From: Paradevosia shaoguanensis
Lineage (GTDB): Bacteria; Pseudomonadota; Alphaproteobacteria; Rhizobiales; Devosiaceae
Assembly (NCBI RefSeq): GCF_016801025.1
Contig: NZ_CP068983.1
Coordinates: 1,178,001-1,242,000, forward strand
Length of the DNA stretch: 64,000 nt
Reading direction: 5' to 3'
Numbering within the stretch: position 1 is the stretch's first letter; each line of letters starts with the position of its first letter. The position numbers and the translations under genes were made by a program. Below the pieces are notes generated by a model that had not been told where the DNA came from, did no database searches, and saw nothing but the letters and a program-made list of their open reading frames with translations. Shown one piece after another: positions 1 to 38,263 of the stretch.

Positions 1-320
1 CGCGGGTTGAGCGAGCCATAGGGGTTCTGGAAGATGATCTGCACCTTGCGGCGCATCTCCCTGGAGAGCCCCTTGCTGATGTCGACCGGCTGGCCCTCGA
101 TCAGCAATTCGCCCGAAGTGGCCGGGTCGATCAGCGTCAGGATGCGGGCAAGGGTGGATTTGCCCGAACCGGATTCGCCCACGATCGCCAGCGTCTTGCC
201 CTTTTCGAGCTTGAAGTTGGCGTCCTTGACGGCGCGGATGATCTTCTCCTTGCGGAAAAGGCCGCCCGACACATGGTAGTTGCGGGTGACGTGGCGGGTT
301 TCGAGAACGATCTCGCTCAT
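1..320 (-). CDS. dppF: Peptide ABC transporter ATP-binding protein, DppF type (partial, cut by window start)
   Basis: Second nucleotide-binding subunit of a peptide/nickel-type ABC importer; it hydrolyses ATP on the inner face of the membrane. About 106 N-terminal residues are visible. They include the Walker A motif GESGSGKST and the Q-loop region IIFQNPYGSLNPR, which is typical of OppF/DppF. The ABC signature and Walker B lie outside the window. The start is fixed by TGATG: the ATG overlaps the dppD stop by one base, so the two are translationally coupled. Last visible gene of the operon dppA-B-C-D-F. Confidence 0.9.
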   Translation of the reverse strand, partial: MSEIVLETRHVTRNYHVSGGLFRKEKIIRAVKDANFKLEKGKTLAIVGESGSGKSTLARILTLIDPATSGELLIEGQPVDISKGLSREMRRKVQIIFQNPYGSLNP

Positions 321-1156
321 CACGCGCTCCCTTCCATATGGAAATCGGACACGGTGGGCAGGCGGTCGCCCGTGGCGTTTTCGGGCAGGGCCGAGAGCAG
401 CGCGCGGGTATAGGCGCTCTTGGGGTTCTCGAAGAGCGTCAGCACGTCGGCCTCTTCCATCTTGCGGCCCTTGTACTGCACCACTACGCGGTCGGCCGTT
501 TCGGCCACCACGCCCATGTCATGGGTGATCATGATGAGTCCCATACCATGCCGCTCCTGGAGCTTCATGAGCAGATCGAGGATCTGCTTCTGGATCGTCA
601 CGTCGAGTGCCGTAGTCGGCTCGTCGGCGATGAGGAGCTTGGGATTGCAGGCGATGGCGATGGCGATCATCACGCGCTGGCACTGACCGCCCGACATCTG
701 GTGCGGATAGGCGCCGAGACGCTCGGCGGCATCGTTGATGCCAACCAGGTGCAGCAGTTCGATGGCGCGTTCGCGTCGCTGCTTCTTGCCCAGGTTGGTG
801 TGCTGGCGCAGCGTTTCGGTGATCTGGAAGCCGACCGTGAAGCACGGATTGAGGCTGGCGACCGGCTCTTGGAAGATCATGGCGATGTCCTTGCCGATGA
901 TCTTGCGCCGGTCGCTGCCCGACATGGTTAGGAGGTCGCGTCCCTCGAAGGTCATCCTGTCGGCAGTGACGGTGGCGGTATTGGGGAGAAGCCCCATCAC
1001 CGCCAGCATGGCTACCGACTTGCCCGAGCCGGATTCGCCGACAATGGCGAGCACTTCACGGGAATCGACCGACATGTCGATGCCCTGCACCGCCATGAAG
1101 AGGCCGGCGGAGGTATCGAAGCCGACCGAGAGGTTCTTGATTTCAAGCAGAGCCAT
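320..1156 (-). CDS. dppD: Peptide ABC transporter ATP-binding protein, DppD type
   Basis: First ATPase of the peptide importer, 278 aa. It has Walker [10 protein letters not shown]-loop [10 protein letters not shown], signature [14 protein letters not shown], Walker [13 protein letters not shown] and the H-loop [10 protein letters not shown]. The C-terminal tail seen in OppD/DppD proteins is present but short. I chose the start at [14 protein letters not shown], because the longer open frame upstream only overlaps dppC without homology. It starts 5 bp beyond the end of dppC. The signature carries SGGQCQR instead of the usual SGGQRQR, a small oddity unlikely to abolish function. Confidence 0.92.
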
Positions 1157-2092: not shown

Positions 2093-3100
2093 TCAGCGCA
2101 CCCTGATTCTCGGATTGATGACGGCATAGAGCACGTCAACGAGGAGATTGACCGCCATCACGATGAGCGCGATGAGCAGCAATCCCGATTGCACGACGAC
2201 GTAGTCGCGCTTGGAGATGGAATCGATCATCCACTTGCCGACACCCGGCCAGGAGAAGATGGTTTCCGTCAGGATGGCGCCGGCCATGAGCATGCCGACC
2301 TGGAGGCCAATCGTGGTGACGACCGGGATGAGGGCATTGCGCAGGGCGTGGACATTGGTGACGCGCGCCGGCGGCAGGCCCTTGGCGCGGGCGGTGCGGA
2401 TGTAATCCTCACCCAGAACTTCGAGCATGGCCGAACGCGTCTGCCGGGCGATGACCGCCAGGGGAATCGTGCCGAGCACGATGGCCGGCAGGATCAGGTG
2501 CCGGAGCGCCGAGACGAAGGCGGGCCAGTTGCCATAGAGCAGGCTGTCGACCGTCATGAAGCCGGTAATGGGCTTGAAGAAGAAGTTGAGCGCGATACGC
2601 CCGGAAACCGGGGTCCAGCCCAATGTGCCCGAAAAGAAGATGATGAGGAGCAGGCCCCACCAGAAGATCGGCATCGAATAGCCGGTGAGCGCAATGCCCA
2701 TCGTGATCTGGTCGAACCAGGAGCCGCGCTTGATGGCCGAGAAGATGCCGGCGGGAATGCCGACGATCACGGCGAACATCATGGCGAAGAAGGCCAGTTC
2801 GAGCGTGGCGGGGAATAGGGCCATGAATTCGTTCCACACCGGGCGCTTGGTCGAGAGCGAAACCCCGAAATTGCCGGTGAGGACGTTGCCCAGATATTGC
2901 AGGTATTGCTGCCAGATCGGCGCATTATACCCGAATTGTTCCTTGAGGATTTCATAGCGTTCCGGCGTGACGCCGTGCTCGCCGGCCATGGCCAGGATCG
3001 GGTCGCCCGGCAGAAGCCGCACAAAGGCAAAGGCACATATCGAGATGCCGATGACGGTGGGCACCAGATAGGCCAGTTTGCGAAGAATGTAGTTCAGCAT
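2093..3100 (-). CDS. dppB: Peptide ABC transporter permease, DppB type
   Basis: Inner-membrane permease of 335 aa. The family N-terminus is MLNYILRKLAYLVPTVIGIS, followed by the RLLPGDP motif and six membrane segments. The EAA loop is DYIRTARAKGLPPARVTNVHALRNA (split here: DYIRTARAKGLPP, then ARVTNVHALRNA). The C-terminal YAVINPRIRVR is typical. The gene sits 125 bp after dppA, with a strong hairpin in that gap, and the ATG of dppC follows directly. Confidence 0.93.
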   Translation of the reverse strand: MLNYILRKLAYLVPTVIGISICAFAFVRLLPGDPILAMAGEHGVTPERYEILKEQFGYNAPIWQQYLQYLGNVLTGNFGVSLSTKRPVWNEFMALFPATLELAFFAMMFAVIVGIPAGIFSAIKRGSWFDQITMGIALTGYSMPIFWWGLLLIIFFSGTLGWTPVSGRIALNFFFKPITGFMTVDSLLYGNWPAFVSALRHLILPAIVLGTIPLAVIARQTRSAMLEVLGEDYIRTARAKGLPPARVTNVHALRNALIPVVTTIGLQVGMLMAGAILTETIFSWPGVGKWMIDSISKRDYVVVQSGLLLIALIVMAVNLLVDVLYAVINPRIRVR

Positions 3101-3192
3101 GCTCTGTTCCAGAGCCTCTTTCCATGGCCCGAAGCCTCACCCCGGTCCATGCCGGGATGAGGCTTGGGACTTGATTGTCGCGCAAAAAGCCA

Positions 3193-3218
3193 GATGGCGC
3201 CAGTTTTCTGGCGCCATC
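3193..3218 (-). terminator. Hairpin between dppA and dppB (attenuator or mRNA-stability stem)
   Basis: Perfect 11-bp inverted repeat GATGGCGCCAG / CTGGCGCCATC with a four-T loop. On the transcribed (minus) strand it is followed by TGGCTTTTTGCG, so it could act as a partial terminator. Such stems after binding-protein genes often protect the upstream mRNA and lower permease expression relative to the binding protein. The effect here is inferred. Confidence 0.75.
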
Positions 3219-3225
3219 CAAAGGC

Positions 3226-4821
3226 TTACTCGGTGACGTCCACGCCGTCGAAGCGGTGAATGCCGAGCGGGTCCATCTTGAAGTTCTGGACGCGCTTGTT
3301 CATCGGCATGAACACCTTGGAGTGGGCGAGGGTCAGGGCCGGAGCCTGATCCTTGAAGCGAACCTGGGCTTCTTCATAAAGCTTGGTGCGTTCGGCCACG
3401 TCGGAAGTGACCTTGGCCTTCTGGATCAGATCTTCGAAGTCCTTGTCACACCAGCTCGAATAGTTCGACACGCCGATGGCCGAGCAGGAGAAGAGGGTGG
3501 CAAAGAAGTTGTCCGGATCGCCATTGTCGCCGGTCCAGCCGATCTGGAACGGGCCCTTGCGGTCCTTCTGCTTGCCGCGCTCGCGGTATTCGGTCCATTC
3601 GTACGAGACGATGTTGGCCTTGACGCCGACAGCGGCCCAGTCGGCCTGGATCATTTCGGCGACGCGCTGTGCGTTCGGGTTGTAGGGACGCGAGACCGGC
3701 ATGGCCCACAGGTCCGTGGTCAGCTCGGTGACGCCGGCTTCGGCCAGGAGCTTCTTGGCCAGTTCCGGATCGTACTCGTCGTCCTTCACGTCCTTGTTGT
3801 AGGACCACATGGTCGGCGGGATCAGGTTGATGGCAACCTGGCCGGCGCCCTGATAGACCGCGTCGATGATCGCCTTCTTGTTGATGGCGTGGTTGAGAGC
3901 CTTGCGGACCTCGACCTTGTCGAACGGCGGCTCGGTCACGTTGTAGGACATGTAACCGATATTGAGGCCTTCCTGCTCGGCGACCACGAGGTTCGTGTCA
4001 GCCTGCAGGCCGGCGATATCGGCCGGAGCCGGGTAGGCCATGATATCGCATTCACCGGCCTTGAGCTTCTGAGCGCGCACGCTCGGATCGGTGGTGATGG
4101 CGAAGATCAGGTCGTCGATCGGCTGCTTGCCGCCCCAATAGTCGGCGAAAGCCTGGTAGCGGATGGTCGAGTCGATCTGGTAGTCGACGAACTGGAACGG
4201 GCCGGTGCCGACCGGCTGGGTCGAGAACGCAGCCATGTTGTTTTCGGCGGCGAGCTTGTCGGCATATTCCTTGGAGACGATCGAAGCGAAGTCCATGCCC
4301 AGGTTCGCGATCATCGGAGCATTGGGTTCGTTCAGCACGAACTTGACCGTCAGGTCGTCGACCTTCTGGATTTCCTTGATGTACTTGGGCATGTCCATGC
4401 CCTGGAAATAATCCCAGGTCATGCCGGGCAGATAGGCATACCACGGATTGTCCGTCTTCATCTGGCGCTCGAACGAGAAGATCACGTCGTCGGCGTTCAG
4501 ATCGCGGGTCGGGGTGAAGTAAGACGTGGTGTGGAACTTGACGCCCGGACGGAGGTGGAAGGTGATTTCCTTGCCGTCGGCCGAGGTTTCCCACTTTTCG
4601 GCGAGGCCCGGCTGGACGGCGGTGCCGCCATGCTCGAACTCGACGAGGCGGTTGTAGATGGTACGCGAAGAGGCGTCGAAATCGTTACCGCCGGTCAGCG
4701 GACCGGGGTCGAAGTGAGCCGGCGAAGCTTCCGAGCAGAACACGAGGGTTTTAGCCTCGGACACGCCAGCCGTGACAGCGACCAGTGCAGTGGCCGCCAG
4801 CAGGGTTTTCATCAAACGCAT
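3226..4821 (-). CDS. dppA: Periplasmic dipeptide-binding protein, DppA type (SBP family 5)
   Basis: Substrate-binding protein of 531 aa that captures peptides in the periplasm and delivers them to DppBC. It starts at MRLMKTLLAATALVAVTAG, a clear Sec signal peptide cleaved near VSEA-KTLVFCSE. A GGAG box lies 7-8 bp before this ATG; the longer frame upstream has no signal sequence. Family features include KTLVFCSEASPAHFDPG, the LVEFEHGGTAVQPGLAEKWE region and WTGDNGDPDNFFATLF, which is typical of DppA rather than OppA. It is first in the operon. Peptide specificity, as against heme or nickel, is not decided by the sequence. Confidence 0.93.
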   Translation of the reverse strand: MRLMKTLLAATALVAVTAGVSEAKTLVFCSEASPAHFDPGPLTGGNDFDASSRTIYNRLVEFEHGGTAVQPGLAEKWETSADGKEITFHLRPGVKFHTTSYFTPTRDLNADDVIFSFERQMKTDNPWYAYLPGMTWDYFQGMDMPKYIKEIQKVDDLTVKFVLNEPNAPMIANLGMDFASIVSKEYADKLAAENNMAAFSTQPVGTGPFQFVDYQIDSTIRYQAFADYWGGKQPIDDLIFAITTDPSVRAQKLKAGECDIMAYPAPADIAGLQADTNLVVAEQEGLNIGYMSYNVTEPPFDKVEVRKALNHAINKKAIIDAVYQGAGQVAINLIPPTMWSYNKDVKDDEYDPELAKKLLAEAGVTELTTDLWAMPVSRPYNPNAQRVAEMIQADWAAVGVKANIVSYEWTEYRERGKQKDRKGPFQIGWTGDNGDPDNFFATLFSCSAIGVSNYSSWCDKDFEDLIQKAKVTSDVAERTKLYEEAQVRFKDQAPALTLAHSKVFMPMNKRVQNFKMDPLGIHRFDGVDVTE

Positions 4822-29755: not shown

Positions 29756-29845
29756 GGAGAGATGGCCGAGTGGTCGAAGGCGCACGCCTGGAAAGTGTGT
29801 AGGCGGGTAACCGTCTCGAGGGTTCGAATCCCTCTCTCTCCGCCA
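29756..29845 (+). tRNA. tRNA-Ser (anticodon GGA)
   Basis: A 90-nt tRNA with a long variable arm as expected for serine. The acceptor stem GGAGAGA pairs with TCTCTCC, followed by G and an encoded CCA. The anticodon stem CACGC/GTGTG closes the loop CTGGAAA, giving anticodon GGA (reads UCC/UCU). The T arm contains GGTTCGAATCC. Its 3' end, including CCA, is the attachment site of the element that follows. Confidence 0.95.
29829..29845 (+). other. attL: 17-bp core at the tRNA-Ser 3' end
   Basis: TCCCTCTCTCTCCGCCA occurs here as the tRNA 3' end and again identically at 38247-38263. An integrase gene begins 95 bp downstream. Tyrosine integrases commonly recombine at tRNA 3' ends, restoring the gene on one side, as seen here. 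Confidence 0.85.
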
Positions 29846-29939
29846 GTTACATTTTTTGATCTCGATTGATCGCGGCAACCTCCTGATACTGCTGGGTTTT
29901 TGACGTTCGGTGACGGCCATTCCGTCGAGCGTCGTATCC

Positions 29940-31619
29940 ATGACTGTACCCAAGAATGTACCCAGACTCTCCGCCGAGAAGTCGACTCGCCATCTGACCC
30001 GACACGGGTCCGGATGGCGGTTTCAGGTCCGCGTCCCCGCCGATCTCAAGAAACATGTGCGAATCCTTTTTTTCCGGTGTTCAATCGGTGCACTGCCGAT
30101 CCGCGAGGCGAACCGAAGGGCTCGACTGCTTGCGGCTGCGGCGGAGAGTGTTGCTAGTAAGGTGCGTAGCATGGCGGAAGAGATGCAGGTTGACGGTCAC
30201 TCGATGTTTGACCTCACCCCCATGGCGATGGCGGAATGGACGGGGTTCTTTCGGGGGCTCGAAATGTCGCTGGTCATGGCGCCGAAATCCGAGCCGGTGC
30301 CTGAACCCTATATCGAGGGCTTGCGCGAGCTGATCCTGATCAACAAGGAGCAGCCGACATCGCGCTACCTGTCGGAAAACGCCGACCTTCTGCGGCAACG
30401 CGCCATAGACAAGATGCGCGGTCAGAACGAGACAGGCACCACGCAGTCCAACGCGGTGCCGTTGGTCACCGCCATGGAACGCCTGACGACGGCTCTGGAA
30501 CGGCAGGCCAAGGTAATTGCCGCTACTGTCGATGCTGCTCCCGCCGCCGCTGCGGCCTCGGCGCCAACCTTCCTTGCTGCCGCTAAGACCTATATCGACA
30601 CGCGGATTGCGGCCAATGGTGGCAAGGAGAGCGGTGACATTCATTCGATCCGTGGACGGGCCGAATTGTTCGCTACCCTGATCGGCGACAAGCCCATCAA
30701 TGAGTATGCCGCTCCCGACCTGCAAGCCTATCTCAACAAGCTGCAATACTGGCCGCCTGAGCGCGATAACGTGGAGGCGTTCGAGGGCAAGACTGCTCTG
30801 GAAATTCTCGCCATGAACGAGAAGCACGACTATGGCGTGATGGCCCGCAACACGGTTACCGGCCACTACGTTGCTGACGTGAAAGCGATCATGTCGCTGG
30901 CCGCTTCCAATGCGAAGGTGACCGATCCCTTTGCCGGGGCGCGACTGTTTTACCCGACGATCTTCGCGGAGCCGAAGCGGCGCAAGGCCCCGGCCATCGG
31001 CAAGGTGGCGAAGGCGTTCCACCTCGGGGTGGAATCGGGCGAGTTGCACAAGGCGATGATCCTGCCGCTTGGCTTCTGGACCGGGCGGCGCATCGGGCTG
31101 CTGACGCGATTGCAGGGGCCGAATATCCGGCGCGTGGGCGACTATGTTGTGGCGAGCCTCGATCAGCATTTTCGTGGCGAAGATGGGGCGCTCGAAAACA
31201 ATGGTTACAAGACCGCAGCGTCTCTCGACGGCTTCATCATGCACCGGTTCTTTGACGACATCGGCTTCGTTGATTGGGCCATGAAGCAGCCGGGCTTTAT
31301 TTTCGAGCGGATGAACCAGTGCGACGATCCGGAGGACGCGATGCAGAAGGCCGCGAACAAGCTGCTCAAGGAAGCCGAGACGGGCGGTTCCTATCACGGT
31401 TTCCGGCACCAATGCACGACGCGGATGCGGGATGCTGGGGTGACCGAATATTCGCGCCGTGTGCAGGCCGGGCACTCAAGCCGCGACAGTCATGAGGACT
31501 ATGGCGACCTCGTCGTCGATCCGACCGATGCGCCGCTGCTCGCCAACCTGCCATTCCCCGATGGATTCGACCCGAGCACCTTCATGGGGCTCGATTTCGT
31601 CGCTTTGGCGCGGGCCTGA
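29940..31619 (+). CDS. int: Tyrosine-type site-specific integrase
   Basis: A 559-aa integrase that catalyses insertion at tRNA-Ser. The N-terminus ([20 protein letters not shown]) resembles the DUF6538 arm-binding-like domain found in proteobacterial integrases. A core-binding region spans about residues 190-310. The catalytic set is readable: Arg383/384 in FWTGRRIG, His486 and Arg489 in YHGFRHQ, His512 in AGHSS, and the nucleophile Tyr521 in HEDYGD. The ATG at 29940 is chosen; an earlier in-frame start is possible. Its first codons overlap paired TGTACCCA repeats that may be arm sites and so could allow autoregulation. Confidence 0.92.
29945..29964 (+). repeat. Paired TGTACCCA repeats near attL (possible integrase arm sites)
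   Basis: TGTACCCA at 29945-29952 and 29957-29964, start-to-start spacing 12 bp. The same pair with the same spacing lies near the right att site (38155 and 38167). The left pair is within the first codons of the integrase gene. Confidence 0.6.
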
Positions 31620-31722
31620 GCGTGGTAACCGGCACTGGGCAGCAGCCCGCCCTCCATGACCAGTAAGCGGCACATCGTAGGTGGGAAGCCGCAGTCAAAA
31701 GTGGAGGCTTGATCGAGCATCC

Positions 31723-32238
31723 CTAAGGAAGGGGCGCAGGGAGTTCTGCTTCCTCGAACCATTCGTCTATCGAGGTAGACAGAGCGCAAGCCGGCCAGAA
31801 AAAGCGCGGCCCCACCAACAGCACGGTTACGGTCTGACCTCGGTATTCCGCAAAGGCCCCACCTCGCATCATGGATGTGTCAACCGGCAGGCTTCGGATG
31901 GTGCCGTAACTCTCGCCGTCAGGTGCCTCGAGCCATCGCCAAGGAATATTTGTGCCAGCTGAATTGTCCAGCAAAATCATCGATCTATCTTCTCGTTCCC
32001 GATAAACGAGGACGCCGTTGAAACGATCATAGTCAATGACGAGGACGTCGCGGTATTTGTCGGCCATGCCATCTGGCTCCTGCCAAAACACCGGAAGTTG
32101 GCCTTCTCGGCACGTAACAGTTCCATCATCCTCAACAGTGAGGGCGTGCGCTTGTGTAACCAACAACCCAACGATCACCGGAAACGCGCACCATCGATAG
32201 AGAAAGGAGAACCGGCCCCGCAATTGGTGACTTGTCAT
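31723..32238 (-). CDS. Exported protein of unknown function, element cargo
   Basis: A 171-aa protein with an N-terminal hydrophobic export signal (FSFLYRWCAFPVIVGLLVTQ then AHALTVEDDG). The mature part has one Cys in VTCREGQLPVFWQ near its N-terminus and another in FFWPACALST near its C-terminus, and is acidic and beta-rich in look. I do not recognise a family. The start lies 21 bp beyond the stop of the next upstream gene, so the two are probably an operon. It is not a known conjugation or integration protein. Confidence 0.6.
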   Translation of the reverse strand: MTSHQLRGRFSFLYRWCAFPVIVGLLVTQAHALTVEDDGTVTCREGQLPVFWQEPDGMADKYRDVLVIDYDRFNGVLVYREREDRSMILLDNSAGTNIPWRWLEAPDGESYGTIRSLPVDTSMMRGGAFAEYRGQTVTVLLVGPRFFWPACALSTSIDEWFEEAELPAPLP

Positions 32239-32259
32239 GCTGGTCGATGCTGGCATGAG

Positions 32260-32874
32260 CTACTTCCCGATCGACAGTGACAAAATACGATAGAATGCGT
32301 CGTAGGCTGGTTGCAGCTTTCCCGACCGAATCTCGGCACGGATGTCCCAACACGCCACGATCATGTTTATCTCATCGCGTCGCTCGGCTTCCCCCACACC
32401 CGAACGATCCATTTCATCATGAAGAATAGACACCCAGTCGGAGAGCGATTTGCTTCCGTTCCGGCCCAACAACTCTCGGTCCTTGGGATCGCTGGGCGCT
32501 TGTGTGTCATGGGTGGTAAGAGAGCGATAGAAGATGCCGCTCTGCGCAATCTTGAAAAGAGCCTCGCCTAAAACTCCCCGAGCCGTGGCATCGGACCACG
32601 AATACATTTGCAGGATTGTGAGGACCGCCATGTGCGCCATGCCACCATCGGACCTCCTGGTCTTGTCGGTTTCCTCTGCCTGTTTGCGTAACATCATCCG
32701 GCGTTCGGAATCGGACCAGCGCGTCTCAGAGAGTGGACCTAAGAGTTTGTATACAGTCCTCGCATAGACATATGCCGCCCCTGGGCAGGACGCCGCCAAA
32801 TTCTCATAGGCTGGCCACAACCCTGCGGCGGCCAGAAACTCGCCTTCACGCTTCTTTCTGCCAAATCCAAACAT
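32260..32874 (-). CDS. Cytoplasmic protein of unknown function, element cargo
   Basis: A 204-aa mostly helical protein starting MFGFGRKKREGEFLAAAGLW. A GGAGGGGG box is placed before the ATG, which favours this start over an earlier in-frame one. Features are a basic N-terminus, a middle with SETRWSDSERRMMLRKQAEE and a C-terminus EIRSGKLQPAYDAFYRILSL. No membrane segment, signal peptide or known motif is seen. With the exported protein downstream it is the only non-backbone content of the element, so a role in host interaction or defence is conceivable but unsupported. Confidence 0.6.
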   Translation of the reverse strand: MFGFGRKKREGEFLAAAGLWPAYENLAASCPGAAYVYARTVYKLLGPLSETRWSDSERRMMLRKQAEETDKTRRSDGGMAHMAVLTILQMYSWSDATARGVLGEALFKIAQSGIFYRSLTTHDTQAPSDPKDRELLGRNGSKSLSDWVSILHDEMDRSGVGEAERRDEINMIVACWDIRAEIRSGKLQPAYDAFYRILSLSIGK

Positions 32875-32930
32875 GCGGTGGCCCCCTCCCTCATTCCACG
32901 GTCTCCGATTCTCCAACTCTGCGATTCAAT

Positions 32931-33509
32931 TTACAAGTCCGCTGGTGCCCCCAGAATGCGATAGACGCTCGACCGGCTGATGCCGAGTTCCTCGGCGATC
33001 TTGCTGGGTTTGGTGCCCTTGGCGGCGAGTTCCTTCACCTTGCTGGAATGGCGCTGGGCGGTCTTCTGCCGCCCAGCATAGCGTCCTTCCCTCTTGGCCC
33101 TGACGATGCCTTCCCGCTGCCGCTCCAACATGATCTCGCGTTCAAATTGCGCGATGCTGCCAAGCAGATTCAGGAGCAATTGCCCCATGGGGGTACTGGT
33201 ATCGATGGCTGGGTCGAGGATGCGCAGCGTGACGCCCTTGGCCTTGAGGTCGTCGGCAATGGCGACAAGGCCGGAGACGGAGCGGGCGAGCCGGTCAATC
33301 TTGGTGACGACAAAGACGTCACCGTCGCGGACATAGATCATGGCGGCGTCAAGCTGGGCACGCTCGGCAACGCTGCTCACCTGCTCCTGAAAAATCTTAT
33401 CGACACCGATAGCGGTGAGTTCGCCAAGCTGAGCTTCCAGTCCCGCGACTTGGTCGCTGGTGGAGGTGCGGGCGTAACCGATGGTCTGGCCGGTGATGGT
33501 CTTGGTCAT
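32931..33509 (-). CDS. Serine recombinase/resolvase (DNA invertase Pin-like)
   Basis: A 192-aa small serine recombinase. The catalytic Ser is in IGYARTSTSDQ; the conserved DVFVVTKIDRLARSVSGLV and GSIAQFEREIMLERQREGI segments follow. The C-terminal helix-turn-helix is GTKPSKIAEELGISRSSVYR. In plasmid-like elements this enzyme resolves multimers, which would suit an element that also encodes a replication protein. It could instead act as an invertase; no inverted site pair was found. Confidence 0.92.
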   Translation of the reverse strand: MTKTITGQTIGYARTSTSDQVAGLEAQLGELTAIGVDKIFQEQVSSVAERAQLDAAMIYVRDGDVFVVTKIDRLARSVSGLVAIADDLKAKGVTLRILDPAIDTSTPMGQLLLNLLGSIAQFEREIMLERQREGIVRAKREGRYAGRQKTAQRHSSKVKELAAKGTKPSKIAEELGISRSSVYRILGAPADL

Positions 33510-33529
33510 GATGAGAGTCCCACTAGGGT

Positions 33530-35371
33530 CTAGGCTTGCTGAGAAATCGGCGTGTTTTGTCCCACATGGTCTGGAATGGACCCGTGTGAGACGGTTGCGG
33601 TCGAGGGCGTGTTGTCGCCCACGGGCAGGGTCGTGTGAGACGTGGGATGGCGACGGGCGGCACTATCCTCAAGCACGCTCACCCAGATATTGACGCCTTC
33701 GGTGTCCACCCGCATGTGCCGATGGTTGGCGGCGACATATTCTACAGTGCCCGCAACAAGCTCGGCTCCATGCGTCCAGGTCCAGTCCCCCTTGAGGATT
33801 TCGATTTGGTCCTGAGCCAATCTCTTGGCGATAGGATCGGGCATGCGCTGCTGGGCATGAATGAGTTCCGCAATCTCGGCGGCGAGTTCGGTGGAATATT
33901 CAGGGGCCTCATTGGTCTGCTCCAGAGCCCACCACCGCGACCGAAGCCACCCCTCACGTCTGAAGGTCTCGACATGGGTGAGGAACGTGCCCGTCAGGTT
34001 GAGGTCGAGCAGCTTGGTCCATACCGTTGCTGGAATCGTGCCAAGGCGGGAAGTCTCATCGAAGGTGGGGCCGGGATCGGTCCCCGGCTCGATACCGAGC
34101 TTCTTCGCCATGCTGGCCGTGATGACACCCGACTTCTGGCCACGAACGGCCTCAACGAACTCGCGGAAATACCCCTGCATCTCGACATCGCCATTTGCTG
34201 CAAGCTCGGCAATATCGAAAGGGCTGAGGCTTGTGTCGTCGTCCATCGCGTCGGCGAGCTTGCCGGTGACTTCGGCGCGCCTATGATGATGGGCGGGATA
34301 TGCGTTCGGCTTGGCGTCGAGGATGGTGGCCGATTGCTGGGTCTTGGCGGCGCGATAGCCCAGTGCCGCCAGCTTGGCGATATAGCTGTCGAGCAACATG
34401 GACGCACCGGCCTTCAGGGCCTCCATATCATCGGTGAGGCACGCGATACTGACATGCAGGTGCGGATGCCACCCACCACGCCGGCTGAGCCGCACATGGG
34501 TATCGGTCATCGCCCCAACCACCTGCATCAATGGGGCGATTTCGTCATTCCAGAGCCTGTCGCCCCGCGACCGCGTTGCAGCCGATTTGAGGGCTTTCAT
34601 CAGCACACCAAGCCTGTCATCGCGGGCGTGTTCGATAGTGAGGACGAACGTGACCACCTTGCCACCCCGCGCCGTGGTGGCCTCGTGAACGAGTCGGTAA
34701 CGTCGGGCTCGCAAGGCCGCGACATGCCGGGCACAGAGGGGGCACGCTTCTCCATTCCCGCAGCGGAAGATGCCTGTCACCGATGCTCGTTCCGTGCCGT
34801 TCGCCCGTTCGATGAGATGCACCGACACAGCCTTCTTCCGCGCATGACCGCAGGCACACACCGCTGGTCCCTTCCCCTTGCTGGGCGACAACATGGTCTG
34901 GATGGGCCGGAGCAGGTGCCGATAGTCGTGTTGTGTCGGCGGCTTCGGTTCCTTCTGGATATGGACGACCTCCTTGAGGAACCTAAGAGAGTGATCCTCC
35001 GTGCCAATCCCGCAGGCCATGGCGGGCACCCCAGCCACGGTGCTGGGCGGGATGCTACCGACGCCTTGTGCGGCGTTCTCTTGAACGGGCTGGGAGGGCT
35101 GTTGCCGGGCATCGTCCGTACCAAAATCCGAACTGACGGCAGGCCGGGCAGGCTCAGAAATTGCCGTGGCTGCCTCGGCTGCCTTGTCGGCTTCGAGAAA
35201 TTCGATGAGGTCGGTCTGCACCATGCGAGGGCGACGGGGCCGTTTCGTCTTCGTTGGCACCGGCATGTCATCGGAAGCCGCTGGGGCACGCGGAGGGTTC
35301 CTCTGGGCCGGTGGCAGGCCCTGAGCGAGATTATACTCATCGATGAGGTCTTCGAGATCGATCATGCCCAT
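33530..35371 (-). CDS. Rolling-circle-type replication initiator (Rep)
   Basis: A 613-aa protein. Residues 1-150 are a Pro/Ala-rich, charged extension with a basic KTKRPRRPR patch. A Cys-rich zinc-finger-like part follows (Cys172, Cys174, then CGNGEACPLC at 204-213). The HUH core is next: motif 1 VTFVLTIEH at about 240-248, motif 2 WHPHLHVSI at 301-309, and motif 3 candidates Tyr330 and Tyr339 in YIAKLAALGY. This order matches pC194/pUB110-type Rep proteins, which nick a double-strand origin. It could let the excised circle replicate. It is too large for a minimal Rep, and the role of the extensions is unknown. Confidence 0.78.
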   Translation of the reverse strand: MGMIDLEDLIDEYNLAQGLPPAQRNPPRAPAASDDMPVPTKTKRPRRPRMVQTDLIEFLEADKAAEAATAISEPARPAVSSDFGTDDARQQPSQPVQENAAQGVGSIPPSTVAGVPAMACGIGTEDHSLRFLKEVVHIQKEPKPPTQHDYRHLLRPIQTMLSPSKGKGPAVCACGHARKKAVSVHLIERANGTERASVTGIFRCGNGEACPLCARHVAALRARRYRLVHEATTARGGKVVTFVLTIEHARDDRLGVLMKALKSAATRSRGDRLWNDEIAPLMQVVGAMTDTHVRLSRRGGWHPHLHVSIACLTDDMEALKAGASMLLDSYIAKLAALGYRAAKTQQSATILDAKPNAYPAHHHRRAEVTGKLADAMDDDTSLSPFDIAELAANGDVEMQGYFREFVEAVRGQKSGVITASMAKKLGIEPGTDPGPTFDETSRLGTIPATVWTKLLDLNLTGTFLTHVETFRREGWLRSRWWALEQTNEAPEYSTELAAEIAELIHAQQRMPDPIAKRLAQDQIEILKGDWTWTHGAELVAGTVEYVAANHRHMRVDTEGVNIWVSVLEDSAARRHPTSHTTLPVGDNTPSTATVSHGSIPDHVGQNTPISQQA

Positions 35372-35795
35372 GGTTCATCTCCACGGCAACGGGGAAGCCG
35401 TCGCTGCGGGAAATGATCAGGGTGGAGAAAGAAAGTGTACAGATACAGCGGGTTAGCCGGTTTCGCGTGCGCCGACAAAGGGGGTAGGGCAGGTAGCGCG
35501 AAACCATAGCTGAGAGGCGACAGGTTGCCTTTTGAGGCACCTTCCCGATGGGTGTCTGTGTCCCCCTAGCACCCCCCAAAAAACGACCCGCGTAGAGGTA
35601 GGTTCTGGACCTCACACGGCCATAGCCCATGGGGCATAAGTGTGTCGGTACGGCAACAGTGACGGAAGGAATCCGTACAGGCACCATGCTGAAGTGCATA
35701 TCCGACCGTCGGCAACCCACGGATATGGACTCCAGCGGGGGCGTAGCCGCCGCCGCTACCAGCGAATCGATCCAGCAGGCGATGGGGTGAGACTG
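35372..35795. promoter_or_regulatory. Intergenic origin candidate between rep and relaxase genes
   Basis: This 424-bp stretch has no convincing gene. It contains the palindrome CCCATGGG (35626-35633), followed by ATAAGTGTG (35636-35644). This resembles the TAAGTGCGCC nic region of MobQ-type oriT downstream of an inverted repeat, although it matches only about half of it. A C-run (AGCACCCCCC) lies near 35569. Both an oriT and a replication origin would be expected here because the genes for both processes flank it. Confidence 0.35.
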
Positions 35796-37568
35796 CTATC
35801 CGAAATCAAGCGGAATACCCCACTGGTTCACGGCCCACGGGTTGCGTGGGCCTTTGCGTTTCCGCTCGACCTTGGCGCCAGCCCACGCCACAAAGGCCGG
35901 GCCGCAATAGACAAAGCGGGGGTAAGCCTGCGTCATGCGTTGGGCCGCAATGATCTCGGCCAGTGCCGCCATTCCCGCCCGCCGCTGTGTTTCCATTTCG
36001 CCCATACGCGCCACGCGTTCGGCACTCTCGGCCTTCTCCACCCGCGCCAGATTCGCCTCCCCGCCCATGACGGCGTGCTCGGCGGCAATCAGGTCGTCGC
36101 GGGCGATAGCGACAGCACGCTCCAACATGACCACACCCGGCTTCGGGGGCTGACGGCCCAGCAGTCGGTCGGCAAGGCTCCTGTGAGGCTCGGGAACCGC
36201 TGCAAGCTGCTCCTGTGCTGCCCTATAGGTCTTCAGCGCCTCGGCATGCCGGGCACTGGTCGCATCACGATATTGTCGGGCAGTATGCAGGCGGGACGAC
36301 ACCGCCGTTTCCGGCCTCGCTTCGGCGGCGGCGATCCGTGCCCGTGCCTGCGTTTCCAGTGCCGCGAGGTGCTGCCCCGTACGCTGTTCCTGCGATTGCC
36401 CTATGCCGGATTTCGCCAGTACCATGAGGGCCGTTGCCGCCTTACCGATGGCCTCGCTTAGTCCGCGTCCAGCATCCGGCGCAGGACGTGTGCGATCCCC
36501 GGTTCCTCCAAGCGCTGATGCAGGGCTTCGAGGGATTGCCGGTTCTGCTCCACTCCGGTGACGATCATCTGAAGCAGCCGGATCATCGTGTCGAGGACCG
36601 ACGCCTCCTCGCCCGACATCGGCAGTGCTGTGGTCTTCGCCAATTGCAATATCGTGCCCAGATCGCGCTTGAGAATGGTCGTGTCCTGCAAAATCAACTG
36701 GGCGAGGTTGGGTGTGGTCGGTGGGTTGGTGGTGGTCATGGCGTTTCCTTTCGAGAAGCGTGTTGAGTTCGGCGCGACGAACGTCGGCAAGGCGGTTGGC
36801 GGCACCGAGGACGACGCCGCCAGCAATAGTGCGGATGACGACGACGCCGGCCTTGTCGCCTGCCGCCAGTTCCAGCCCGTGGCCGCCCAGGCGGCTGCGG
36901 AAGTCATCAGCATTGGTGCTGGCCGCCCATGCGGCTCGGACATGCTGCCGAGCCTGCGCCAGATCGACCCCAGCCCTCTTGGCCGCCTGATGCGCCGACG
37001 AAGAGAATGCCTCCACCGGCTTCGGTCCTTTCCCCAGCACCGTATCGAGGCGGTCGGCCAGATCGCCCCTGCCTTCGGCCCGCAAGGCCGACAGAACGGC
37101 CAGATCATGCGCACCCGGCACCACGGGATGCCCGAATAGAAGCTCAAGCTGGCGGGCAATCTTCTCATGGCGAGCGTGGTCGTGGCGGCTGGACAGAACC
37201 CGTCCGCTGACGGCATGGGTTTCCGGCACGACAAGATGCCAATGCCGGTCGCTGGCACCGGCAACGGCTCGCGCCTTGGCATGTTCCACGATCAACGCGT
37301 CAGCGACATCGAAGCGGAATTCCTCGGCCAGCATTGATGCGGCCTCATGAAACTGCTCTCGGGTCATCTCGACGGCAGGGGCGAGAATCCAGTGCCTGAC
37401 CGAGTAGGTGCGGCTGAACGCCTTGGCGTCCTTCACCGCGTCCTCGACATCGCCAACATGGCCCCGAATGACGGTGATGGATTCGTTGTCGTCGCCATCG
37501 AGGAGATGGCGCAGCAGCGGCCCCGCGCCTGCCGAAGTCCGAACCCGTGTGGACTTGATCAGCACCAC
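35796..37568 (-). CDS. HUH relaxase / mobilisation protein
   Basis: A 590-aa relaxase that would nick oriT for transfer. The N-terminal 200 residues carry the family features: MVLIKSTRVRTSAGAGPLLR, VRHWILAPAVEMTREQFHEA, the VEHAKAR segment, the metal-binding HWH at 109-111 in SDRHWHLVVPE, and FGHPVVPGAHD. This pattern matches relaxases of alphaproteobacterial plasmids. Residues about 277-371 are a low-complexity His/Asp/Arg/Pro/Gly linker, encoded where a second gene runs in another frame. The C-terminus is helical, ending WAVNQWGIPLDFG. It starts 2 bp after the MobC-like gene. Confidence 0.85.
   Translation of the reverse strand: MVLIKSTRVRTSAGAGPLLRHLLDGDDNESITVIRGHVGDVEDAVKDAKAFSRTYSVRHWILAPAVEMTREQFHEAASMLAEEFRFDVADALIVEHAKARAVAGASDRHWHLVVPETHAVSGRVLSSRHDHARHEKIARQLELLFGHPVVPGAHDLAVLSALRAEGRGDLADRLDTVLGKGPKPVEAFSSSAHQAAKRAGVDLAQARQHVRAAWAASTNADDFRSRLGGHGLELAAGDKAGVVVIRTIAGGVVLGAANRLADVRRAELNTLLERKRHDHHQPTDHTQPRPVDFAGHDHSQARSGHDIAIGEDHSTADVGRGGVGPRHDDPAASDDRHRSGAEPAIPRSPASALGGTGDRTRPAPDAGRGLSEAIGKAATALMVLAKSGIGQSQEQRTGQHLAALETQARARIAAAEARPETAVSSRLHTARQYRDATSARHAEALKTYRAAQEQLAAVPEPHRSLADRLLGRQPPKPGVVMLERAVAIARDDLIAAEHAVMGGEANLARVEKAESAERVARMGEMETQRRAGMAALAEIIAAQRMTQAYPRFVYCGPAFVAWAGAKVERKRKGPRNPWAVNQWGIPLDFG
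36458..36739 (-). CDS. Nested small protein inside the relaxase gene (93 aa)
   Basis: A complete frame within the relaxase gene, shifted relative to it. The protein starts MTTTNPPTTPNLAQLILQDT and contains amphipathic helices (ASVLDTMIRLLQMIVTGVEQ, then NRQSLEALHQRLEE). A strong AAAGGAAA ribosome-binding site lies 6 bp before the ATG. The relaxase frame is low-complexity exactly here, which implies selection acts on this frame. RSF1010 has a similar arrangement, with mobB inside mobA, but I see no sequence likeness to MobB. Function is probably as a mobilisation accessory factor. Confidence 0.65.
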   Translation of the reverse strand: MTTTNPPTTPNLAQLILQDTTILKRDLGTILQLAKTTALPMSGEEASVLDTMIRLLQMIVTGVEQNRQSLEALHQRLEEPGIAHVLRRMLDAD

Positions 37569-37570
37569 TA

Positions 37571-37870
37571 TCAGCGTCCCAGTGCGGTTTGAGCATCCTT
37601 GCGGGCCATCGACAGGTCCGCAAGGGCGTCTGCGGCCACAGAACCGGAAAGCGCCGCATTGACGCGGGCCTCGATGGCCGAAATGCGCTTGCGCAAGGCC
37701 ACGACCTCAAGCATCTGCGTCTCGTTCAATGGCTCACGCATGCCGGTCATGGCGCGGATACCACGACGAACAATGGTCGAAACGGGAACGCCCTGCGCCT
37801 TGGCGTAGTCGTGGAGAACGGCCTTTTCCCTATCGGGAAGGCGAAGTTCAAGACGGCGGTTACAATCCAT
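37571..37870 (-). CDS. MobC-like ribbon-helix-helix mobilisation accessory protein
   Basis: A 99-aa protein. Its N-terminus MDCNRRLELRLPDREKAVLH gives a beta strand, followed by two helices (DYAKAQGVPVSTIVRRGIRA), the ribbon-helix-helix layout. The rest is a helix of coiled-coil type (EVVALRKRISAIEARVNAAL). Such proteins bind oriT and help the relaxase. The ATG at 37870 is preferred, with GAAGAGG 8 bp upstream; a GTG 9 bp earlier is in frame. It precedes the relaxase gene by 2 bp, so the two are coupled. Confidence 0.75.
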   Translation of the reverse strand: MDCNRRLELRLPDREKAVLHDYAKAQGVPVSTIVRRGIRAMTGMREPLNETQMLEVVALRKRISAIEARVNAALSGSVAADALADLSMARKDAQTALGR

Positions 37871-38246
37871 CACGATCACCTCTTCGGGGGTGCACGGGGG
37901 CCTGCCCCCTGCCTGCTGTCGTCCGTAAGGGCGACATGGCTGGCCCCCTATGAGCCAGCACCTTCCACAAGGTCTGATGGATATTCCTCAATTGCAACAA
38001 TGCCGTACGGACAAAAGAGACATGTGCGCCAGCACGCTCTTCGGCAGACCATTCCTGCCGGCGGGCCAACGGGCCGAAGACGCCACATATCGGAGGCTCG
38101 ATGGCCCGCCCGCAGCGAAAGCTGCGGATAGCTTCAACAGGCCGATGGACGAAATGTACCCATGGATGTACCCAGAAAGGGCAATGAAACCGGGCTTTCC
38201 CCGAACGCCCAGAAAACTCCTGTACCCAGGACGCCCCGGCTGAGAG
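37871..38246. other. Non-coding right end of the integrated element
   Basis: No gene is supported here. The stretch probably holds the promoter of the mob genes, the paired TGTACCCA repeats at 38155 and 38167, and a third copy at 38221. Confidence 0.5.
38155..38228 (+). repeat. TGTACCCA repeats near attR (possible integrase arm sites)
   Basis: TGTACCCA at 38155-38162, 38167-38174 and 38221-38228. The first two have the same 12-bp spacing as the pair near attL, and the flanking bases also match (ATGTACCCAGA). The third copy is 19 bp from the core site. Confidence 0.6.
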
Positions 38247-38263
38247 TCCCTCTCTCTCCGCCA
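38247..38263 (+). other. attR: 17-bp core repeat
   Basis: TCCCTCTCTCTCCGCCA, identical to the tRNA-Ser 3' end at 29829-29845 and in the same orientation. It marks the right boundary of the integrated element. Confidence 0.85.

Follow-up and report, generated by a model that had tools for sequence, protein, structure and literature searches.

A conserved small gene nested in the relaxase gene of a probable integrative mobilizable element of Paradevosia shaoguanensis

The stretch of DNA analyzed here (the window) comprises 64,000 nucleotides of the alphaproteobacterium Paradevosia shaoguanensis. It contains at positions 29756-38263 a probable integrative mobilizable element, judged by its sequence, of 8.4 kb, inserted in a tRNA-Ser(GGA) gene. 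The relaxase gene of this element harbors a second, much shorter gene in another reading frame. The features are as follows.

29756..29845, plus strand: tRNA-Ser (GGA) gene (ARAGORN), ending at its 3' side in the left att repeat (29829-29845; 17-bp exact repeat)
29910..31619, plus strand: probable tyrosine integrase with a DUF6538 domain (PF20172, E=5e-7), adjoining tRNA-Ser
32931..33509, minus strand: serine resolvase (Pfam Resolvase, E=1.3e-37; 79-84% identity in four relatives)
33530..35371, minus strand: protein of 613 aa that may be a replication initiator (Rep_1 match weak and under the cut-off, E=0.01)
35796..37568, minus strand: relaxase of 590 aa (PF03432, Pfam E=2.7e-8), with a nuclease domain at about residues 1-274, a low-confidence linker at 275-371 that overlaps the nested gene and a helical C-terminal part at about 364-572 (AlphaFold; alignment of 6)
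36458..36739, minus strand: nested gene of 93 aa, an ATG-initiated ORF in the +1 frame of the relaxase; predicted helices at residues 12-37, 48-77 and 82-92
36740..36755, minus strand: ribosome-binding site of the nested gene, CTCGAAAGGAAACGCC before the ATG; GAAAGGA in 4/6 and TGGAGA in 2/6 intact Devosiaceae copies
37571..37879, minus strand: small MobC-like protein of 102 aa, encoded immediately upstream of the relaxase (DUF6290 and RelB-antitoxin matched weakly, under the curated cut-offs)
38247..38263, plus strand: right att repeat, an exact 17-bp copy of the tRNA-Ser 3' end

We take the element to be probably integrative and mobilizable from its att repeats at a tRNA gene together with an integrase, the latter identified partly by a motif that we take to mark the DUF6538 protein as a recombinase. 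None of the seven element proteins scanned against Pfam (the relaxase, the nested protein and five others) belongs to a secretion family. The module of mob genes recurs together with the rep-like and resolvase genes in G154, G242, G822 and G836, and tRNA-Ser genes lie near it in G154 and G242. The MobC-like gene adjoins the relaxase gene in six relatives, MobC is annotated at the same place in four related plasmids, and four Devosiaceae relatives have the rep-like protein, with 41-58% identity. The element also carries a 218-aa ORF (32260-32916, minus strand) for which Pfam gave no match at an E-value of 0.01 or below. On two Acetobacter plasmids (L054 and L055), a DUF6538 protein is annotated directly upstream of mobC and a related relaxase.

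The nested ORF (36739 to 36458 on the minus strand) has 93 codons, starts with ATG and lies entirely within the relaxase ORF (37568 to 35796). Its start falls at about relaxase residue 276 and is preceded by GAAAGGAAACGCC. The initial annotation had described this ORF and a ribosome-binding motif six bases before its start; the ORF is as described, and the spacing is right for AAAGGA (GAAAGGAAACGCCATG) but not for the longer AAAGGAAA, which ends four bases before the ATG. Its further reading, an orderly helical protein set against a His/Asp/Arg/Pro/Gly linker in the relaxase, agrees with the structure predictions. The best AlphaFold model of the nested protein consists of three helices with a mean pLDDT of 73.4 (other models, 60-67), and the linker composition is seen at relaxase residues ~276-369, where the pLDDT is below 50 from residue 275 to 371. 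No membrane-type segment is apparent in the nested protein (19-residue hydrophobicity mean, 1.11).

By sequence criteria, the nested protein represents an unrecognized family. Scans of the nested proteins against Pfam, NCBIfam and PHROGs gave nothing at curated cut-offs and only weak matches, which we judged to be due to chance. None of the 46 Foldseek matches of the model in the PDB reached an E-value of 0.001; Foldseek cannot place the protein, because helical hairpins are too common. Among the open-licence papers listed, judged by titles and the start of abstracts, none describes the gene. The openness of the nested frame is by itself weak evidence for a gene, because the DNA is GC-rich and the +1 frame of the relaxase in the window is open for 277 codons. 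We therefore discarded this argument and relied on comparative tests.

The relaxase profile matched 22 of 136 Devosiaceae genomes, with six full-length copies including that of the window; two of the matches are confined to relaxase residues 1-161 (G824) and 1-41 (G807), and 13 others are distant and partial. The nested profile matched seven of the same 136 genomes. An order-level search of 397 genomes gave 15 matches, of which, besides the window, two were full length (63% and 61% identity). Across 385 genomes at class level, a profile of the window's nested protein matched the window alone, and tblastn of the window protein against 72,556 plasmid records returned no match at an E-value of 0.01 or below. 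Among the named genomes, a search with the relaxase found no relative and one with the nested alignment found a single relative, Devosia elaeis.

All six full-length Devosiaceae copies keep the nested ORF, with lengths of 93, 93, 93, 93, 93 and 91 aa and with conserved start, ribosome-binding site and aligned stop. The relaxase frame is likewise open through the overlap in all six, and the gaps that G836 has within the overlap are whole codons. The case that the initial annotation had named as evidence against its proposal, a close homologue with the relaxase and a broken nested frame, is therefore absent from these six copies. In a seventh copy (G801, L052), a rearrangement past relaxase residue ~333 breaks both the relaxase and the nested gene at one point.

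The pattern of change among the six copies switches frame within the relaxase gene. In the alignment window 310-372, the relaxase frame has a mean pairwise identity of 0.40, lower than the 0.58-0.71 clear of the overlap, and the +1 frame has one of 0.67, higher than the 0.32-0.40 clear of the overlap. Divergence at the three relaxase codon positions is 0.28/0.19/0.55 before the overlap and 0.27/0.23/0.52 after it; inside, it becomes 0.43/0.30/0.19, which in the codon phase of the nested gene reads 0.31/0.19/0.42. Fourfold-degenerate sites of the relaxase differ in 899 of 1550 comparisons before the overlap, in 35 of 380 inside it and in 713 of 1233 after it, a drop in divergence from 0.58 to 0.09 on entering the overlap; nested fourfold sites differ in 222 of 444 comparisons.

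Simulations point the same way. When selection acted on the relaxase only, the observed nested identity exceeded all 300 runs in 15 of 15 sequence pairs, which share a tree and are not independent. The fitted relaxase constraint lay at the upper end of the grid (no constraint) in 14 of the 15 pairs, so that this null amounts to neutral change in which the relaxase frame is kept open. On the single sequence, the nested ORF of the window outscored every one of 288 overlapping +1 windows without stops, taken from 82 other relaxases. We conclude, on strong comparative support, that the nested gene is real, codes for a separate protein and is under purifying selection. The initial annotation had proposed that the nested frame is selected, and the kind of test that it had suggested, a comparison of synonymous and nonsynonymous change in both frames, has borne the proposal out.

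What does the overlap mean for the relaxase? The AlphaFold model (mean pLDDT, 64.7; pTM, 0.31) has a mixed alpha/beta domain before the linker and a helical part after it, and the nested gene sits at the joint of the two, between nuclease domain and helical C-terminal part. The longest low-confidence stretch in the model, residues 275-371, matches the nested span; shorter ones lie at 149-162, 174-194, 377-389 and the C-terminal end. Since the model was built from six sequences, its low confidence may partly mirror low conservation. When only the nested frame was under selection, simulated relaxase identities were within -0.05 to +0.07 of those observed. The observed value was above the simulated mean in 10 of 15 pairs, by at most 0.07 (about 2 standard deviations), and never above the maximum of 300 runs. 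Relaxase residues in the overlap thus show no detectable conservation beyond that expected from selection on the nested gene, yet their frame stays open, which happened in only 0-8% of these runs per pair. The stretch therefore seems to be needed mainly as an open, flexible linker. The excess in 10 pairs leaves room for weak selection on the linker residues, and at most weak selection is what we would assign to them from these alignments.

Comparable nested ORFs are present in further lineages of relaxases. A first scan looked inside relaxase genes for ORFs that have a ribosome-site motif and outdo the relaxase frame in codon score. It picked out 16 of 75 distinct relaxase ORFs; three of these hits (L008, L009 and L015) were rejected, each being a gene that lies downstream and overlaps the relaxase ORF at its end. 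A second round covered 36 relaxase loci, some repeated from the first, and added G554, and BLAST added an ORF on Ensifer canadensis pT173c. In total, 15 of the 105 distinct relaxase ORFs examined contain such an ORF, seven in Devosiaceae (including the broken G801 copy) and eight elsewhere. All 15 are in the +1 frame, and their starts lie near relaxase codons 229-288, in a numbering for which the relaxase starts are approximate. Twelve of the 13 that were scored beat all 288 +1 windows from the 82 other relaxases, and the remaining one (G935) was equaled by 1 of 288. The scans took in loci up to L136 (not L137-L148), one contributing search gave loci of best matches only, and weaker nested genes would be missed because a ribosome-site motif and a codon score were required. 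A similar scan of 102 other long ORFs passed three, and in at least one of these the other frame seems, on reading it, to be a genuine gene.

Selection on the smaller frame is also suggested in a second relaxase lineage. Between G361 and Ensifer, nested residues are shared at 36 of 72 positions and those of the relaxase frame at 13 of 71, while relaxase residues 71-235 agree at 104 of 165. On Ensifer canadensis pT173c (L059, ~3000-4200), the relaxase has decayed with stop codons and the nested ORF still runs unbroken from its start to its stop. On a Marivivens plasmid, the relaxase ends at residue 294 and a small gene with the same start place extends beyond the relaxase stop. G554 holds two sister relaxases, L130 with the nested gene and L131 without it, which are 82% and 78% identical on either side. 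L131 lacks residues 283-370, in frame, so that the nested gene body and the linker have gone together; the sequence ahead of the nested start is changed between the two.

As L131 and plasmids of Acetobacter and Pararoseomonas illustrate, more distant relatives can lack the nested gene. Inspection by eye found none in the Acetobacter, Pararoseomonas, Sphingopyxis and pTF4.1 relaxases, and the scans found none in 90 of the 105 related relaxase ORFs, so the gene is not essential to this type of relaxase. The nested proteins of Devosiaceae and those of other lineages were not significantly similar in profile comparisons, and we therefore do not claim common descent for all of them. Clear similarity across lineages was limited to Ensifer and G1127 (E-value of about 1e-6, in a tiny database) and to the G361 group. 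In a tree of 70 relaxases, the 13 rows labeled as nested require at least 5 changes, a pattern compatible either with a single ancient origin followed by losses or with several origins; the positions of L056, L095 and L011 are unsure, because their branches are long.

Why would a relaxase gene contain a second gene? The reading that we favor, and consider rather probable, is that the nested gene is selected, is translated internally from the relaxase mRNA and acts as an accessory mobilization factor. Initiation would occur at its own ribosome-binding site, and production of the protein would therefore be tied in place and time to that of the relaxase. We hypothesize that the small, soluble, helical protein self-assembles and binds the relaxosome, that is, the relaxase and the MobC-like protein at the origin of transfer, where it might help nicking or docking to a type IV secretion system of the host. 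This is the mode of action proposed for MobB and MbeB/MbeD. Judged by place and analogy, an accessory role in mobilization would be the most likely one: the mob module around the gene is conserved in relatives, and its layout is that of ColE1 and of the IncQ1 plasmid pMS260. On the other side of the account, the protein belongs to no recognized family, has no fold match in the PDB at an E-value of 0.001 or below and lacks a membrane segment like that of IncQ MobB.

A selected gene could serve another purpose, such as regulation of mob or rep genes, exclusion of incoming copies or replication and maintenance of the element. Place alone gives no function, a small helical protein fits many roles, MbeD of ColE1 is annotated as 'mobilization/exclusion', and the rep-like gene is a conserved neighbor in four Devosiaceae relatives. 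We regard a role of this kind as somewhat unlikely, in view of the position of the nested gene after the relaxase domain in several relaxase lineages. In addition, metabolic genes come next downstream on the Marivivens plasmid, and the rep-like gene of the window is unmatched on the 6.3-kb Marivivens stretch and on the 7-kb G554 contig, the flanks of several other loci being too short for a judgment.

The ORF that we call the relaxase might also be two genes, one for the nuclease and one for the C-terminal protein, separated by an untranslated linker in which the nested ORF is an ordinary middle gene of the operon. The linker residues, with no clear constraint beyond nested selection, would fit such an arrangement, and so would the truncated Marivivens relaxase with its protruding small gene. 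The retention of an open relaxase frame in all six intact copies, rare in the nested-only simulations, speaks against it, as do the whole-codon gaps of G836 and the in-frame fusion of both parts in the sister copy L131, and we consider this arrangement improbable. That only the relaxase frame is coding, and the nested ORF is open by chance because the DNA is GC-rich, we hold to be most improbable, given the simulations in all 15 pairs, the fall in fourfold divergence and the conserved start, ribosome-binding site and stop, even though the +1 frame is open over a long distance and a comparable scan on single sequences passed three of the 102 other long ORFs.

A wider pattern can be entertained, though we offer it tentatively. 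Relaxase genes may repeatedly and independently have come to host a small helical gene at the joint that follows the nuclease domain, and every time in the +1 frame; ColE1, IncQ and several lineages of Alphaproteobacteria would be examples. The interdomain linker would then be the shadow of the nested gene. This would point to a general design where making both proteins from one message matters, and perhaps to a large hidden set of unannotated mobilization proteins. Nested mobilization genes were already known from a few classic plasmids; to these the analysis adds a statistically strong case with an unrecognized protein family and similar ORFs in several alphaproteobacterial relaxase lineages. 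Nested genes are easily missed in annotation, and the interdomain gap of relaxases is therefore a place to seek overlooked transfer proteins. Of the two named plasmid records found with such a gene, that of Marivivens lists a hypothetical protein and that of Ensifer lists none there (PLSDB table, which is incomplete). The switch of conservation between frames, combined with a low-confidence stretch in the relaxase, provides a test for finding such genes.

Among known systems, IncQ plasmids offered the initial parallel. RSF1010 mobB is described as internal to mobA, in a frame stated there that differs from +1 (PMC2200642). In the IncQ1 plasmid pMS260 (NC_005312), a single nested gene, mobB, lies in the +1 frame within mobA, as in the window, and the overlapping stretch of the relaxase is, by eye, rich in Arg, Gly, Pro and His, the same kind of sequence as the window linker. 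The proteins differ: IncQ MobB has 136 aa and a clear membrane-type segment (19-residue mean of 2.3, compared with 1.11 in the window protein). BLAST gave no match between the window protein and pMS260 MobB at an E-value of 10 or below, and the profile comparison gave an E-value of 0.49; the lack of visible similarity to an RSF1010-type MobB reported in the initial annotation thus extends to this IncQ1 MobB, pMS260 having been compared in place of RSF1010. The relaxases differ as well, that of pMS260 being MOBQ, unlike that of the window (PF03432; relatives typed MOBP). The IncQ relaxase is fused to a primase.

ColE1 (NC_001371) is a further parallel, absent from the initial annotation. Its MobC gene is followed by the relaxase gene mbeA with mbeB and mbeD wholly inside it in the +1 frame, a layout like that of the window. 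MOB-suite types the ColE1 record as MOBP, and likewise four plasmids with relatives of the window relaxase; three other plasmids with such relatives are typed as non-mobilizable. MbeD has 77 aa and no hydrophobic segment, as in the window protein, whereas MbeB has a more hydrophobic one (19-residue mean of 1.85, versus 1.11). ColE1 has two nested genes and the window has one, on a chromosomal element. Similarity of the nested proteins to MbeB/MbeD was not significant (best BLAST E-value of 0.026 with 14 nested proteins; profile E-values of 0.11 or worse), and no match naming MbeB or MbeD appeared in the Pfam and NCBIfam scans. Internally encoded MobB and MobD are also reported for a ColE-like plasmid (PMC9282650). 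A further case is that of the Paracoccus plasmids pMARC2 and pAES4 (MOBP5), which are reported to have overlapping mobA, mobB and mobC and a similarity to Aeromonas pAsal2 (PMC3832669); by that description, they resemble the window as an alphaproteobacterial MOBP module with overlapping mob genes. By its sequence, we would file the window protein in neither the IncQ MobB nor the ColE1 MbeB/MbeD family, but with both systems it shares the layout of a small gene carried inside the relaxase gene.
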